Below are positions 199-5,945 of a stretch of 13,050 bases of DNA, in pieces; position 1 is the stretch's first letter; each line of letters begins with the position of its first letter. The stretch spans positions 14,295-27,344 of the forward strand of contig PLGA01000262.1 in NCBI GenBank assembly GCA_003139735.1, written 5' to 3'. This stretch comes from Bryobacterales bacterium (GTDB lineage: Bacteria > Acidobacteriota > Terriglobia > Bryobacterales > Bryobacteraceae). The notes beneath the pieces were generated by a model that searched no databases, was not told the DNA's origin, and saw nothing but the letters and a program-made list of their open reading frames with translations. The position numbers were made by a program, and so were the translations under genes.

Positions 199-3100
199 AT
201 GCATCGACCCGGCAAGCTGTGGATGATTTTGGGAATCTTGTCTGTGGTTCCCGGAGCGGCCTTCGCCCAAGGCGAGCCGCAGGATTTCAATCGTGACTGG
301 CGCTTCACCAAGGGCGACCAACCCGACGCGGTAAAGCAGTTGAGCTTCGACGACTCGGCGTGGCAGGCTGTACGGCTGCCGCACGATTGGGCAATCTTCG
401 GTCCGTTTGACGCCAACCTCCCCGGCGGCACGGGAAAACTGCCGTGGCAGGGGGTGGGTTGGTACCGCAAGACATTCACGCCGAGCGGCGCCGCCGGACA
501 GCGCGTGTACTTCGATTTCGATGGCGTGATGGCGTCTCCCAAGGTGTACGTCAACGGCCAGCTCGCCGGCGAGTGGAACTACGGGTACGCCTCCTTCCGC
601 GTGGATGCGACGCAATACATACGGTTCGGCGAGCGAAACATCATCGCGGTGCAGGCGGACACGCGGCATCACCAATCGCGCTGGTATCCCGGAGCGGGCA
701 TCTATCGCAAGGTCACCATGACGGTCACGGGTCCCGTACACATCTCGCATTGGGGCACGTATGTGACGACGCCCGCGGTCAGCGATCTGCGCGCCACGGT
801 GCGCGTCGAAACTTCGGTGGACAACCACCAGTCCGCGAATCGGGATGTCACCGTCGAGGTTTCGGTGCTCGATCCCACGGGCAAACAGGTTGCGACCGGA
901 TCGAAGAACGGCGTGGCGCCGGGCAACGGATCGGCGGTGGTGGACCAGGTGTTGCTGGTTGCGAGTCCGCAGCGATGGGACTTCGCGAAGCCGAATCTCT
1001 ATACGGCGGTGGTGACGCTGCGCGGCGGCGGCGCATCGCTCGATAAAGACACCGAGACCTTCGGCATTCGCACGTTCCAGTTCACGGCGAACGACGGCTT
1101 CTTCCTTAATGGCAAGCACGCGCAGCTCCACGGCGTGTGCCTGCATTCGGATTTGGGCGCGCTGGGAATGGCCTACAACGTCCGCGCCATGCAGCGGGAA
1201 CTGGAAATCATGAAGGATATGGGGGTCAACGCCATCCGCACCAGCCACAACCCGCCGGCCCCGGAGACGCTGGCGCTGTGCGACCGCATGGGCATCTTCG
1301 TTTGGGACGAAGCCTTCGATAAGTGGAACGCCACGGGCGACAATCCGGACGGAGCGGCGGGCGTGATGCCGAACGCGGAGAAGCAACTGACCAACCTGGT
1401 ACAGCGCGACCGCAACCACCCCAGCGTTTTCGTGTGGTCGGAAGGCAACGAGATCGGGACCTCGGTCGATGAAGTCAGCGATGGCATGTCGTTCGGCCGC
1501 TTGTGGGCGATGCGCGAGATCATCCGGAAACAGGACGACACGCGCGCCGTCGGCATGGCCTGCCACACGCCCAATACGGTCGCCTTCGCGGTTTACGATC
1601 CACTCGATTTGACCGGTTGGAACTATGGCCACCGTTACGATAACTACCGCGCAATGTACCCCGAGAAGCCCATCCTCTACAGCGAATCGGCGTCGGCCAC
1701 CAGCACGCGTGGTTACTACGCGTTTCCGTTGCCGATTTCGAAGACGGGTTTCCCCGCGGGCGCCAGCTATGTGAACTCCTACGATCTCATCGCGGCGGGT
1801 TATTCCGACGTTGCGGACGCGGAGTTTAACCTGCTCGAGAAGGATAAGTTCGTGGGCGGCGAATTCGTGTGGACCGGGTTCGACTATCTGGGCGAACCGT
1901 CTCCGAATGGGCGGGATGCGCGCAGCTCCTATTACGGGATCGTGGATCTGGCGGGCATTCCGAAGGACCGCTTCTATCTGTATCGCAGCTACTGGCGGCC
2001 GGACGAGAACACGATCCACATTTTGCCGCACTGGAATTGGCCCGACCGGGTGGGGAAGAACGTGCCTGTGTTCGTGTACACCAATGGCGATTCGGCGGAG
2101 TTGTTCCTCAACGGGAAATCGCTCGGACGGCGAACCAAGGGCGTTGTGCCGCCCAAGGCGAAGAATGCCGCGCAGGGAAAGACTGCGACCGCCAGCTCGG
2201 GCGCCAACGCGCGGCTGGCAATCGACGGCGACGATGCGACGGAGTGGCTGGCGCAAGCGCCGGGCCCCAACTCATGGCTGCAAGTGGATCTTGGCGCGGT
2301 GCAGCCGGTCCAGCAGATCGACCTGACGCTGGGATCTACCGCGAGCGGGGCCGGATATCTGGTCAAGCTTTCAAGTGACGGCGCGAACTGGACCACGGCG
2401 GCAACGGTGGAGGTTCGGGCGCCCTTCGCAGGCAGGGGCGGCAGGGGCGGAGCAGGCGCGCCCGGGGCGCCCGGCGCGGCAGCAGCGGGCGGCAGGGGCG
2501 GAGCAGGGGCGCCCGGGGCGCCCGGCGGAGCGGGCGGCAGAGGCGGGCCCGTAGCGGGCACCCCCGGCGCACCCGGCGCACCGGGCGCGGCGGCCGGCGG
2601 CAGGGGCGGGGCAGGCGCAGGCGGCGGAATGGGCGGGGGCGCCTCGGCATCCGCCATTGAAACCGATGCGCGCGCGCGGTACGTCCGGATCGAGTTCACC
2701 GCGTTGACGGACAACACGGCGGCGGCGTCCATTCGCGAGTTGAGCGTGTACGGGGCGCGTTATGTGCCCGATTACTACGATGTCACCTACAAGTACAGGC
2801 TTCGTTGGGATGACGTGGTCTATGAGCCGGGTGAGCTGAAGGCGGTCGCTTACAAGGGCGGCGCGAAGATTGGGGAACAGTCGATGCGCACGGCGGGAGC
2901 GCCGGCCTCGATTCGTCTTACGCCGGACCGGACCACGCTGGCGGCCACGGGCGAGGACCTATCCTACATCCTGGTGGAGGCGCTTGATGCCCAGGGGAAC
3001 CCCAATCCGCTGGCGGACAACCTGGTGCAGTTCGATGTGCAAGGCCCGGGCGAGATCGCTGGAATCGACAACGGCGACGAGCTTTCGCTCGCGTCTTTCC

Positions 3101-4327: not shown

Positions 4328-4726
4328 ATGCAACGACGGTCGTACTTGAAGACAATGCTGGCCGCCACGGCGGGGCTGGGCGCCGCCCAAACGCCCAAGA
4401 AACAGGCGCAGAACCCGGTGGTGCTGCACGTGGATCTTTCGGTCGATCCGGCCAAGGAAACGGAGATGCTGCACAACTTCCACACCATCTTCAAACCCGC
4501 GGCGGAGAAGTTTCCAGGTTATATCGATGTGAAGATGTGCAAGCTGCGGTCGGCCCTGCAGGGCGCGGCGCCCAGCGGGGTCAATTACCGCTTCCAATTG
4601 ACGTACCAAAGCGAGGAGCTGCGCCAGAAATGGGTGGCTTCCGAGACGCACCAGAAGGCGTGGCCGACGATAGAGAACACGCTGAAATCCAAGAACTACG
4701 TCGTGCTGCTGTTCGATTCGGTGTAG
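4328..4726 (+). CDS. exported ABM-domain (YgiN-like) protein with twin-arginine signal
   Basis: A 132-residue protein. The N-terminus RRSYLK followed by a short Ala-rich hydrophobic stretch resembles a Tat signal, with cleavage somewhere near residue 20. The rest (about 30-132) looks like one ferredoxin-like antibiotic-biosynthesis-monooxygenase domain: a beta strand VVLHVDLSV, a helix with ETEMLHNFHTIFKPAAEKFPG, and a late segment SEELRQKWVASETHQKAW typical of the fold. Such domains act as cofactor-free oxygenases on quinol-like substrates, or as haem-degrading or dimeric binding proteins. No specific catalytic residue can be assigned. A strong GAGGAGG lies about 7 bases upstream of the ATG. 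The TAG stop is formed by the GTAG foot of the REP-like hairpin at 4723-4746. Domain assignment is by pattern recognition. A Tat signal on an ABM domain is notable. Confidence 0.78.
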   Translation: MQRRSYLKTMLAATAGLGAAQTPKKQAQNPVVLHVDLSVDPAKETEMLHNFHTIFKPAAEKFPGYIDVKMCKLRSALQGAAPSGVNYRFQLTYQSEELRQKWVASETHQKAWPTIENTLKSKNYVVLLFDSV

Positions 4727-4746
4727 GGCGGGCCTCCTGGCCTGCC
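4723..4746 (+). repeat. REP-like hairpin, copy A (GTAG foot)
   Basis: GTAG is followed by an 8-bp stem (GGCGGGCC / GGCCTGCC) closed by a TCCT loop, with one internal G-T wobble. The GTAG overlaps the TAG stop of the ABM gene. It is the inverted partner of copy B at 4776-4799 and matches it at 20 of 24 positions. It could double as a transcription-end hairpin, although no T tract follows. Confidence 0.8.
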
Positions 4747-4775
4747 TTCCGGGCGAAAGTGAACGGGATCAAGAA

Positions 4776-4799
4776 GACAGACCAGGAGGTCCGTCCTAC
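4776..4799 (-). repeat. REP-like hairpin, copy B (GTAG foot)
   Basis: Read on the minus strand: GTAG, then GACGGACC, TCCT loop, GGTCTGTC. Compared with copy A, the four differences form two compensated base pairs (G-C to A-T), and the internal G-T wobble is kept at the same stem position. Its GTAG overlaps the TAG stop of the cupin gene. A 29-base spacer separates it from copy A, giving a tail-to-tail BIME-like doublet. Confidence 0.8.
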
Positions 4800-5674
4800 T
4801 GGCGGCCCCTTCCGCCAAGCACGGTCTCGAGAACGCCCTTCTGGCTGGCGATGCCGATGATCATGAATTCCAGGTCATGCGAACTGTTGTTCTTGAACGA
4901 GTGCGCTTCGCTCAACAGGACCGGCACCGCGTCACCCTTGTGGATGTCGGCCGTTTCCCCATTCACCTGGGCCTGGCCATCGCCGTTCAGAACGAAGTAA
5001 ACCTCTTCGATCCCGGGATGCCGGTGCGCGCCTTCGGAAGCGCCTGGGGGAAGCAGCAGGTGATCCATGTAGGACCAGTTGGTGAGAAACACGCTGGGGT
5101 CGAGCGCCCGGCGATACTGCGCCGTGCCTTCTCCGCCGTGGTAGCCCGGCACGGCGCGCAGCAGCGCCTTATCCAAACGCATGGTCATGAACACGGGGAT
5201 AGGGTCCTTGAAGACGTTGAGGCGCGCATCCCCCAGGTTGAAGGCGTCGTACATGCCCTTGACCGCCGTCACGTTGATGTTCATGAATTCCACGGGGTGG
5301 TCGGAGGGATTATAGATGGCGTGCGAGTGCCCCATGCGGCACGGCGCGCCGACGGTTCCCTTCAACACGGAGGTTCGTCCGTCGATGGTGAACTCCGCCT
5401 CTCCGTCGAAGACGACGAACATCTCCTCGCACTGGTTGTGGAAGTGATGGCCGACGCCGCCGCCGGGCATGATCTGGCAGCGATGGATGAAGTCCAGGTT
5501 GGTAGTCAGGGCATTGCCGGGCATGAGGACTTCGCAGGCCATATCGCCCGCGCTGTCATGCGACCGGCTGCGGGTGTATTTGCTGGGATCGGTATGGCCG
5601 ATCCGCTGCGCCAACGGATCCCGAGCCAACAGAGGCAGCGCCAGAGTGGTCAGGAGAATCAGAGTCTTTTTCAT
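4796..5674 (-). CDS. exported double-cupin protein
   Basis: A 292-residue bicupin with a Sec signal peptide (KK at the start, hydrophobic core, cleavage near residue 17). The start at 5674 is preferred over the ATG at 5701 because it gives a clean signal peptide and a GGTGATGG element lies upstream. The first cupin keeps the metal-binding pattern HFHNQCEEMF with H77, H79, E84 and a later His in GHSHAIYN (116 or 118). The second keeps HRHPGIEEVYF with H217, H219, E224 and H258 in EAHSF. Both sites look intact, so two metal centres are likely. Bicupins include oxalate decarboxylases, dioxygenases, isomerases and sugar-binding proteins, and the substrate is not evident. The gene is convergent with the glycosidase operon, and its TAG stop lies inside REP copy B. 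A functional link to the sugar operon is only positional. Confidence 0.87.
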   Translation of the reverse strand: MKKTLILLTTLALPLLARDPLAQRIGHTDPSKYTRSRSHDSAGDMACEVLMPGNALTTNLDFIHRCQIMPGGGVGHHFHNQCEEMFVVFDGEAEFTIDGRTSVLKGTVGAPCRMGHSHAIYNPSDHPVEFMNINVTAVKGMYDAFNLGDARLNVFKDPIPVFMTMRLDKALLRAVPGYHGGEGTAQYRRALDPSVFLTNWSYMDHLLLPPGASEGAHRHPGIEEVYFVLNGDGQAQVNGETADIHKGDAVPVLLSEAHSFKNNSSHDLEFMIIGIASQKGVLETVLGGRGRQ

Positions 5675-5729: not shown

Positions 5730-5753
5730 CCGGAAGATTGCAAGACAAAGCTT

Positions 5754-5778
5754 GACGCGGAGACGCGGAGACGCGGAG
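5754..5778 (-). repeat. octamer repeat, left arm of a perfect 25-bp inverted pair
   Basis: Three tandem GACGCGGA octamers plus G. It is the exact reverse complement of 5846-5870, with 67 bases between the arms. The pair lies between the divergent cupin and HExxH-TPR genes and could form a long hairpin. Confidence 0.85.
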
Positions 5779-5845
5779 ATCATCGTGACCTAAGGACTCC
5801 ACCAGCGAATCGCCTTCGCCCCGAGCTTTTTCTTCCCATGTGGAA

Positions 5846-5870
5846 CTCCGCGTCTCCGCGTCTCCGCGTC
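5846..5870 (+). repeat. octamer repeat, right arm of a perfect 25-bp inverted pair
   Basis: Three tandem CTCCGCGT octamers plus C, the same 25-nt design as the copy at 68-92 (22 of 25 positions identical). The 67-base interval between the arms has no convincing ORF. Confidence 0.85.
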
Positions 5871-5945
5871 AGGTTTTGGGCGGATTGCCCTGCGCCACCC
5901 CCGCCGCAAGTACGCTAGACTAATCGGTATCCTAGGCGGAGATCC

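Follow-up and report, generated by a model that had tools for sequence, protein, structure and literature searches.

How do the stop codons of two convergent genes come to lie within the feet of a single repeat, and did the repeat supply these stops or come to coincide with stops that the genes already had? The locus that raises this question is a 77-bp unit (4723-4799) in the 13,050-nt stretch of Bryobacterales DNA analyzed here (the window), an inverted pair of 24-nt REP-like hairpins located between convergent genes. Direct reading, with both elements matched to family copies, shows that the left REP (4723-4746, plus strand) is GTAG-GGCGGGCC-TCCT-GGCCTGCC and that the right REP, in inverse orientation (4776-4799, minus strand), is GTAG-GACGGACC-TCCT-GGTCTGTC, with a 29-nt spacer (4747-4775) between them. 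The original prediction of two oppositely oriented elements, each with a GTAG foot, an 8-bp stem and a TCCT loop, is thus confirmed, as are its finer points, namely that the four stem positions at which the elements differ form two compensated pairs and that both stems have a single G-T wobble, in the same position. Each foot also holds, as claimed, the stop TAG of its gene: 4724-4726 on the plus strand for the left-hand gene (gene 1; 4328-4726, plus strand, 132 residues) and 4798-4796 on the minus strand for its convergent neighbor (4796-5674, minus strand). The neighbor is clearly a cupin gene (Cupin_2, 80.8 bits; cut-off 27.2), whereas the label 'ABM' proposed for gene 1 is weak because its sole Pfam match, to DUF4286, falls below the cut-off. 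Upstream of the cupin gene lies a 36-nt inverted repeat (5746-5781 and 5843-5878; 92% complementary) made of GACGCGGA units.

The hairpins belong to a multicopy family. A search of the source genome (5.28 Mb in 661 contigs, about 82% complete) recovered 54 matches at up to 3 mismatches and none with a reversed-pattern control, in keeping with the idea that the window doublet is a dispersed repeat. With a covariance model derived from 18 copies, and with 150 of the 5603 first-look candidates scored, 118 matches reached E<=10; among these, a block near 30.6 bits represents a different 37-nt repeat. The consensus is GTGG-GGCGGRCC-TCCT-GGYCTGCC, often followed by TTCTT, with the foot, GTAG or GTGG, immediately 5' of the short stem-loop; stem positions are paired in 93.3% of cells among the 28 distinct 24-mers of the source genome, against at most 91.5% for shuffled columns. 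After filtering for GT[AG]G feet, which drops copies with other feet, the 56 distinct copies of the source genome comprise 52 with GTGG and 4 with GTAG; outside the filter fall one copy with a GCGG foot and a small number of sites that are out of register or unrelated. The normal foot of the family is therefore GTGG, which corrects the GTAG of the earlier description. Many copies in the source genome lie directly 3' of stops and some overlap reading frames, as judged, uncounted, from the gene calls of our own script rather than from annotation. Among 60 relatives searched, 18 contain matches, although single matches may be due to chance given that the reversed control yields one or two in five genomes. 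The same-genus genome G003 has 277 matches, and all 79 distinct copies in the 57 stretches sampled from it have a GTGG foot.

With respect to its overall form, the window doublet is REPIN-like, that is, an inverted REP pair able to fold as one hairpin; the predicted fold of 4715-4805 is strong (-49.0 kcal/mol, calculated without a shuffle control). A second 77-bp unit, at G000:C459:4226-4302, agrees with the window unit at 62 of 77 positions, and their spacers share 21 of 29 positions, a level reached by none of 100000 shuffles. Only five inverted pairs no more than 260 nt apart were found in the loci of the source genome, so that most copies lie outside detected doublets.

The proposed connection to a REP-associated tyrosine transposase (RAYT) holds in a sister genome. 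On contig C6 of G003 (L200), a Y1_Tnp gene is flanked on both sides by exact REP copies, and its frame (1539-2183, minus strand) matches PF01797 at 25.4 bits (cut-off 23). The source genome has four PF01797 matches of its own, but the examined flanks of all four are free of family copies at up to 4 mismatches; the nearest of these proteins is 54% identical to the G003 RAYT over 139 residues. The final codons of the G003 RAYT (EEGRPGGPPH and the stop) lie in one of the REP copies, from which they are read. In the source genome, a GTGG-foot hairpin that differs from the family by 6 mismatches adjoins another Y1 transposase frame (L030, 1418). Furthermore, Y1 transposase genes in G004 (L327, 1400 and 2041) and G033 (L330, 1400 and 2037) are bordered by a sister REP family whose loop region reads CCCC[T/A].

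GTAG feet coincide with stop codons beyond chance, as the tabulation suggested in the original prediction makes clear. Stops were called with our own codon-score script, at a minimum of 60 open codons and a score above 10. In all four GTAG feet of the source genome, the TAG is the in-frame stop of a coding ORF: two belong to the window genes, one to a RibBA-type gene (C71) and one to a putative 'Sortilin-like' gene (C179); counted as three independent loci, this coincidence has p = 0.001. By comparison, a coding ORF reads TGG in frame in 2 of the 49 judged GTGG copies of this genome (Fisher p = 5e-5 against 4/4), and a scored ORF does so in 10 of the 71 judged in G003, some of these frames being perhaps spurious. 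An initial sample of relatives, with 1 of 11 GTAG feet serving as a stop, spoke against a general link. The family-wide set covered 237 genomes, 33 of them with matches, and together with the C179 copy yielded 89 distinct GTAG copies, three of which lie too close to a contig end to be judged. Among the other 86, 36 feet are stops, against 11.8 expected from GTAG words in non-coding DNA and from other stops of the family loci, a background set in which the loci of the source genome partly overlap (p = 1.3e-10); with the four copies of the source genome left out, the count is 32 of 82 (p = 1.1e-8). All 36 fall at the exact offset from the foot, and when the best-scoring stop is considered, no other offset occurs more than twice. 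When G130, G131 and G094 were set apart, after the counts had been seen, as genomes with abundant GTAG, stops made up 2 of their 22 feet, against 34 of 64 in the others. For these three genomes, as well as for G253 and G255, only the feet in examined loci enter the counts.

Whether the element created the stops can be addressed through relatives that do not have it. In the three closest (L342, L343 and L358; 84-85% identity), gene 1 stops at the same residue and with the same letters, GTG TAG, without the element. Such orthologues, sharing the stop and devoid of the hairpins, run counter to the proposal that insertion fixed or replaced the stop of gene 1, and the unchanged final residue likewise speaks against trimming of its C-terminus. 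At the gene 1 junction the element is absent within 5 mismatches from all 21 named-genome loci, L362, one of these loci, carrying two copies some 4 kb from the site, and inspection by eye of 13 family-level flanks recognized no element. The stop of gene 1 is TAG in 12 of these 21 loci and in 9 of these 13 flanks, the two sets partly overlapping. From these comparisons, the stop of gene 1 seems to be older than the element, which suggests that the REP, rather than giving gene 1 its stop, merged with a pre-existing one.

The cupin side is less clear-cut. In L358 the convergent cupin gene (81%) is retained, 13 nt from gene 1 and with a TAA stop, whereas L343 has an apparent degenerate cupin end at a distance of 19 nt, with G-TAG on both sides. 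The C-terminus of the window cupin is one residue longer than that of L343, where a TAG after G lies nearby, and two residues shorter than that of L358; thus, the stop lies near those of the relatives, at a position that need not be identical to theirs. The cupin gene is convergent in the window and in L358; in many relatives (e.g., L062, L064, L346 and L348) it lies downstream of gene 1 in the same direction, so that the convergent arrangement itself represents a change in this lineage.

The two other genes of the source genome that end in GTAG feet also appear untrimmed, given that their lengths equal those of their closest orthologues. The RibBA-type gene is as long as its orthologues in G003, G004 and G001, and the G003 stop is also a TAG after G; the fourth closest, in G023, is 10 residues longer, and among the 29 orthologue ends listed the length differences range from -2 to +16 residues. 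The C179 gene, whose protein has no Pfam match in the C-terminal part examined, has the length of its closest orthologue, in G004, which stops at TAA, so that the TAG here may be younger than the end of the protein. A further case shows how a stop can move between a gene and a foot. G023 and G194 (L158 and L413, one genus) share an SDR gene with the same REP downstream; depending on a 7-nt indel, the gene stops either at a native TGA or at the TAG of the foot. The shorter end occurs in 55 of the 120 homologues listed, out of 8000 scored, and an end one residue further on in the other 65, a split that fits either direction of the indel.

Taking these observations together, we consider it probable, though by no means certain, that a 77-bp REPIN of a RAYT-type family entered the short convergent spacer and merged with older stops. 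Under this scenario, two convergent genes that probably both ended in G-TAG beforehand, the older TAG of the cupin gene being a presumption, would have been separated by a very short spacer, into which a REPIN of a family with a GTGG foot was inserted. The native spacer would have been lost, leaving each foot coincident with the resident stop. A plain 77-bp insertion should leave the old spacer in place, and none remains between feet and stops; hence, we propose a small deletion or strand exchange between the GTAG of the stop and the near-identical GTGG of the foot, which would explain the loss of spacer on both sides with the proteins unchanged. Selection on the codon would then maintain the A of the foot because a TGG foot would extend the protein into the hairpin. 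The very short element-free convergent spacers (13 nt in L358 and 19 nt in L343) and the G023/G194 indel, a natural example of such stop shifts, argue for merging. Against it stand the 10 additional residues of the G023 RibBA, the TAA of the closest C179 orthologue and the offset of one or two residues at the cupin end, and no intermediate was seen in the window. The small number of inverted pairs, the initial sample of relatives (1 of 11), the in-frame TGG copies of G003 and the failure to find a copy-flanked RAYT in the source genome also count against this account.

A different order of events, in which the REPIN was inserted with in-frame GTGG feet and a later G-to-A change (TGG to TAG) was selected that restored protein length, strikes us as unlikely, even though it draws on the same facts about the family: GTGG is the normal foot and is one change away from TAG, GTAG is limited to stops in the source genome, and copies with in-frame TGG do occur in both genomes at the frequencies given above, if the frames are genuine. 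For gene 1, this order would need two changes that together rebuild the prior state, since the element-free relatives already have the old letters at the old residue, and the RibBA and C179 genes keep the lengths of their closest orthologues. More doubtful still is the derivation of the foot from the target, with the transposase inserting beside a GTRG word that, at gene ends, is a G-TAG stop. The placement exactly at stops and the GTAG of gene 1 at the empty site of the three relatives would fit such a preference; however, GTAG makes up 26.5% of the non-coding GTRG words in the source genome and 31% in G003, far above its share among feet (4/56, p = 2.5e-4, and 0/79, p = 1.8e-13), and one target word could not provide both feet of a doublet.

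The least probable account is the one originally put forward, in which stops were replaced and proteins trimmed by the element, which would now serve as a bidirectional transcript end. The convergent placement and the strong fold of the whole unit are what such an end would be expected to display, but gene 1 is untrimmed, and a scan of 4600-4950 for intrinsic terminators (a G+C-rich stem followed by a T run) found no terminator-like site on either strand. Moreover, no Rfam family scored above its cut-off, and the six sub-threshold matches were to animal miRNA families (five) and a viral frameshift element (one).

With respect to function, the window REPIN is most likely a mobile passenger. If it acts, it would do so as a stable hairpin directly 3' of a stop, the stem starting immediately 3' of the TAG, with a potential effect on translation termination, stalling or mRNA decay rather than as an intrinsic terminator. 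By analogy, an effect like that of the earlier study cited in the available portion of PMC12306157 is conceivable at the window hairpin. Merging with a stop might also have consequences for the element. According to the accessible part of PMC8266576, another RAYT cleaves GTAG substrates in vitro at CA and CT, and GTGG substrates at CA (less well) and CC; given this difference, merging with a stop would retarget the element or end its circulation. We tentatively suggest, while regarding it as rather improbable, that GTAG feet persist chiefly at TAGs used as stops, so that the coding system edits the guide tetranucleotide of the transposase and merging retargets or retires the element. If so, there would be a built-in route from a mobile REP to a fixed gene end, and gene ends would be the sites where mobile REPs become fixed.

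Several of these features have counterparts in known systems. That REP feet can provide TAG stops has already been published: judging from the available text, the GTAG-tagged REPs of Di Nocera et al. (2013; PMC3733652) resemble the present family in their tetranucleotide foot, short stem-loop, inverted dimers and location near gene 3' ends. They differ in that here GTGG is the usual foot and GTAG is limited to stops in the source genome; a GTGG majority is mentioned there, in the same text, for the O. terrae GTAG-20 elements only, and no mention of Solibacter was found in it. In the RAYT-linked REP literature, as far as available, Solibacter usitatus is credited with a different hairpin family with a CnGA foot, and the accessible literature on REPINs and RAYTs in Acidobacteria held no description of the present family. 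The REPINs described by Bertels and Rainey (2011; PMC3116915), in the portion at hand, are REP doublets thought to move as a single unit; they share with the window unit the two inverse REPs, the spacer and the potential for one long hairpin, a likeness strengthened by the second unit of equal length with a related spacer. In contrast to REPINs, the window family is known from sequence, with the few inverted pairs noted above. The REPtrons and RAYT-linked REPs (PMC2817692, PMC6006769 and PMC8266576, each as available in part), for which GT[AG]G feet have been described, likewise combine a Y1 transposase gene with flanking copies of the same REP, except that in our case the flanked RAYT is found in the sister genome G003 and not in the genome of the window. 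What is new is the REP family itself, which adds a RAYT-linked family of Acidobacteria, together with its GTGG norm, the restriction of GTAG to stops in the source genome and the element-free relatives; the counts and these relatives now back the published remark on REP feet as stop codons.
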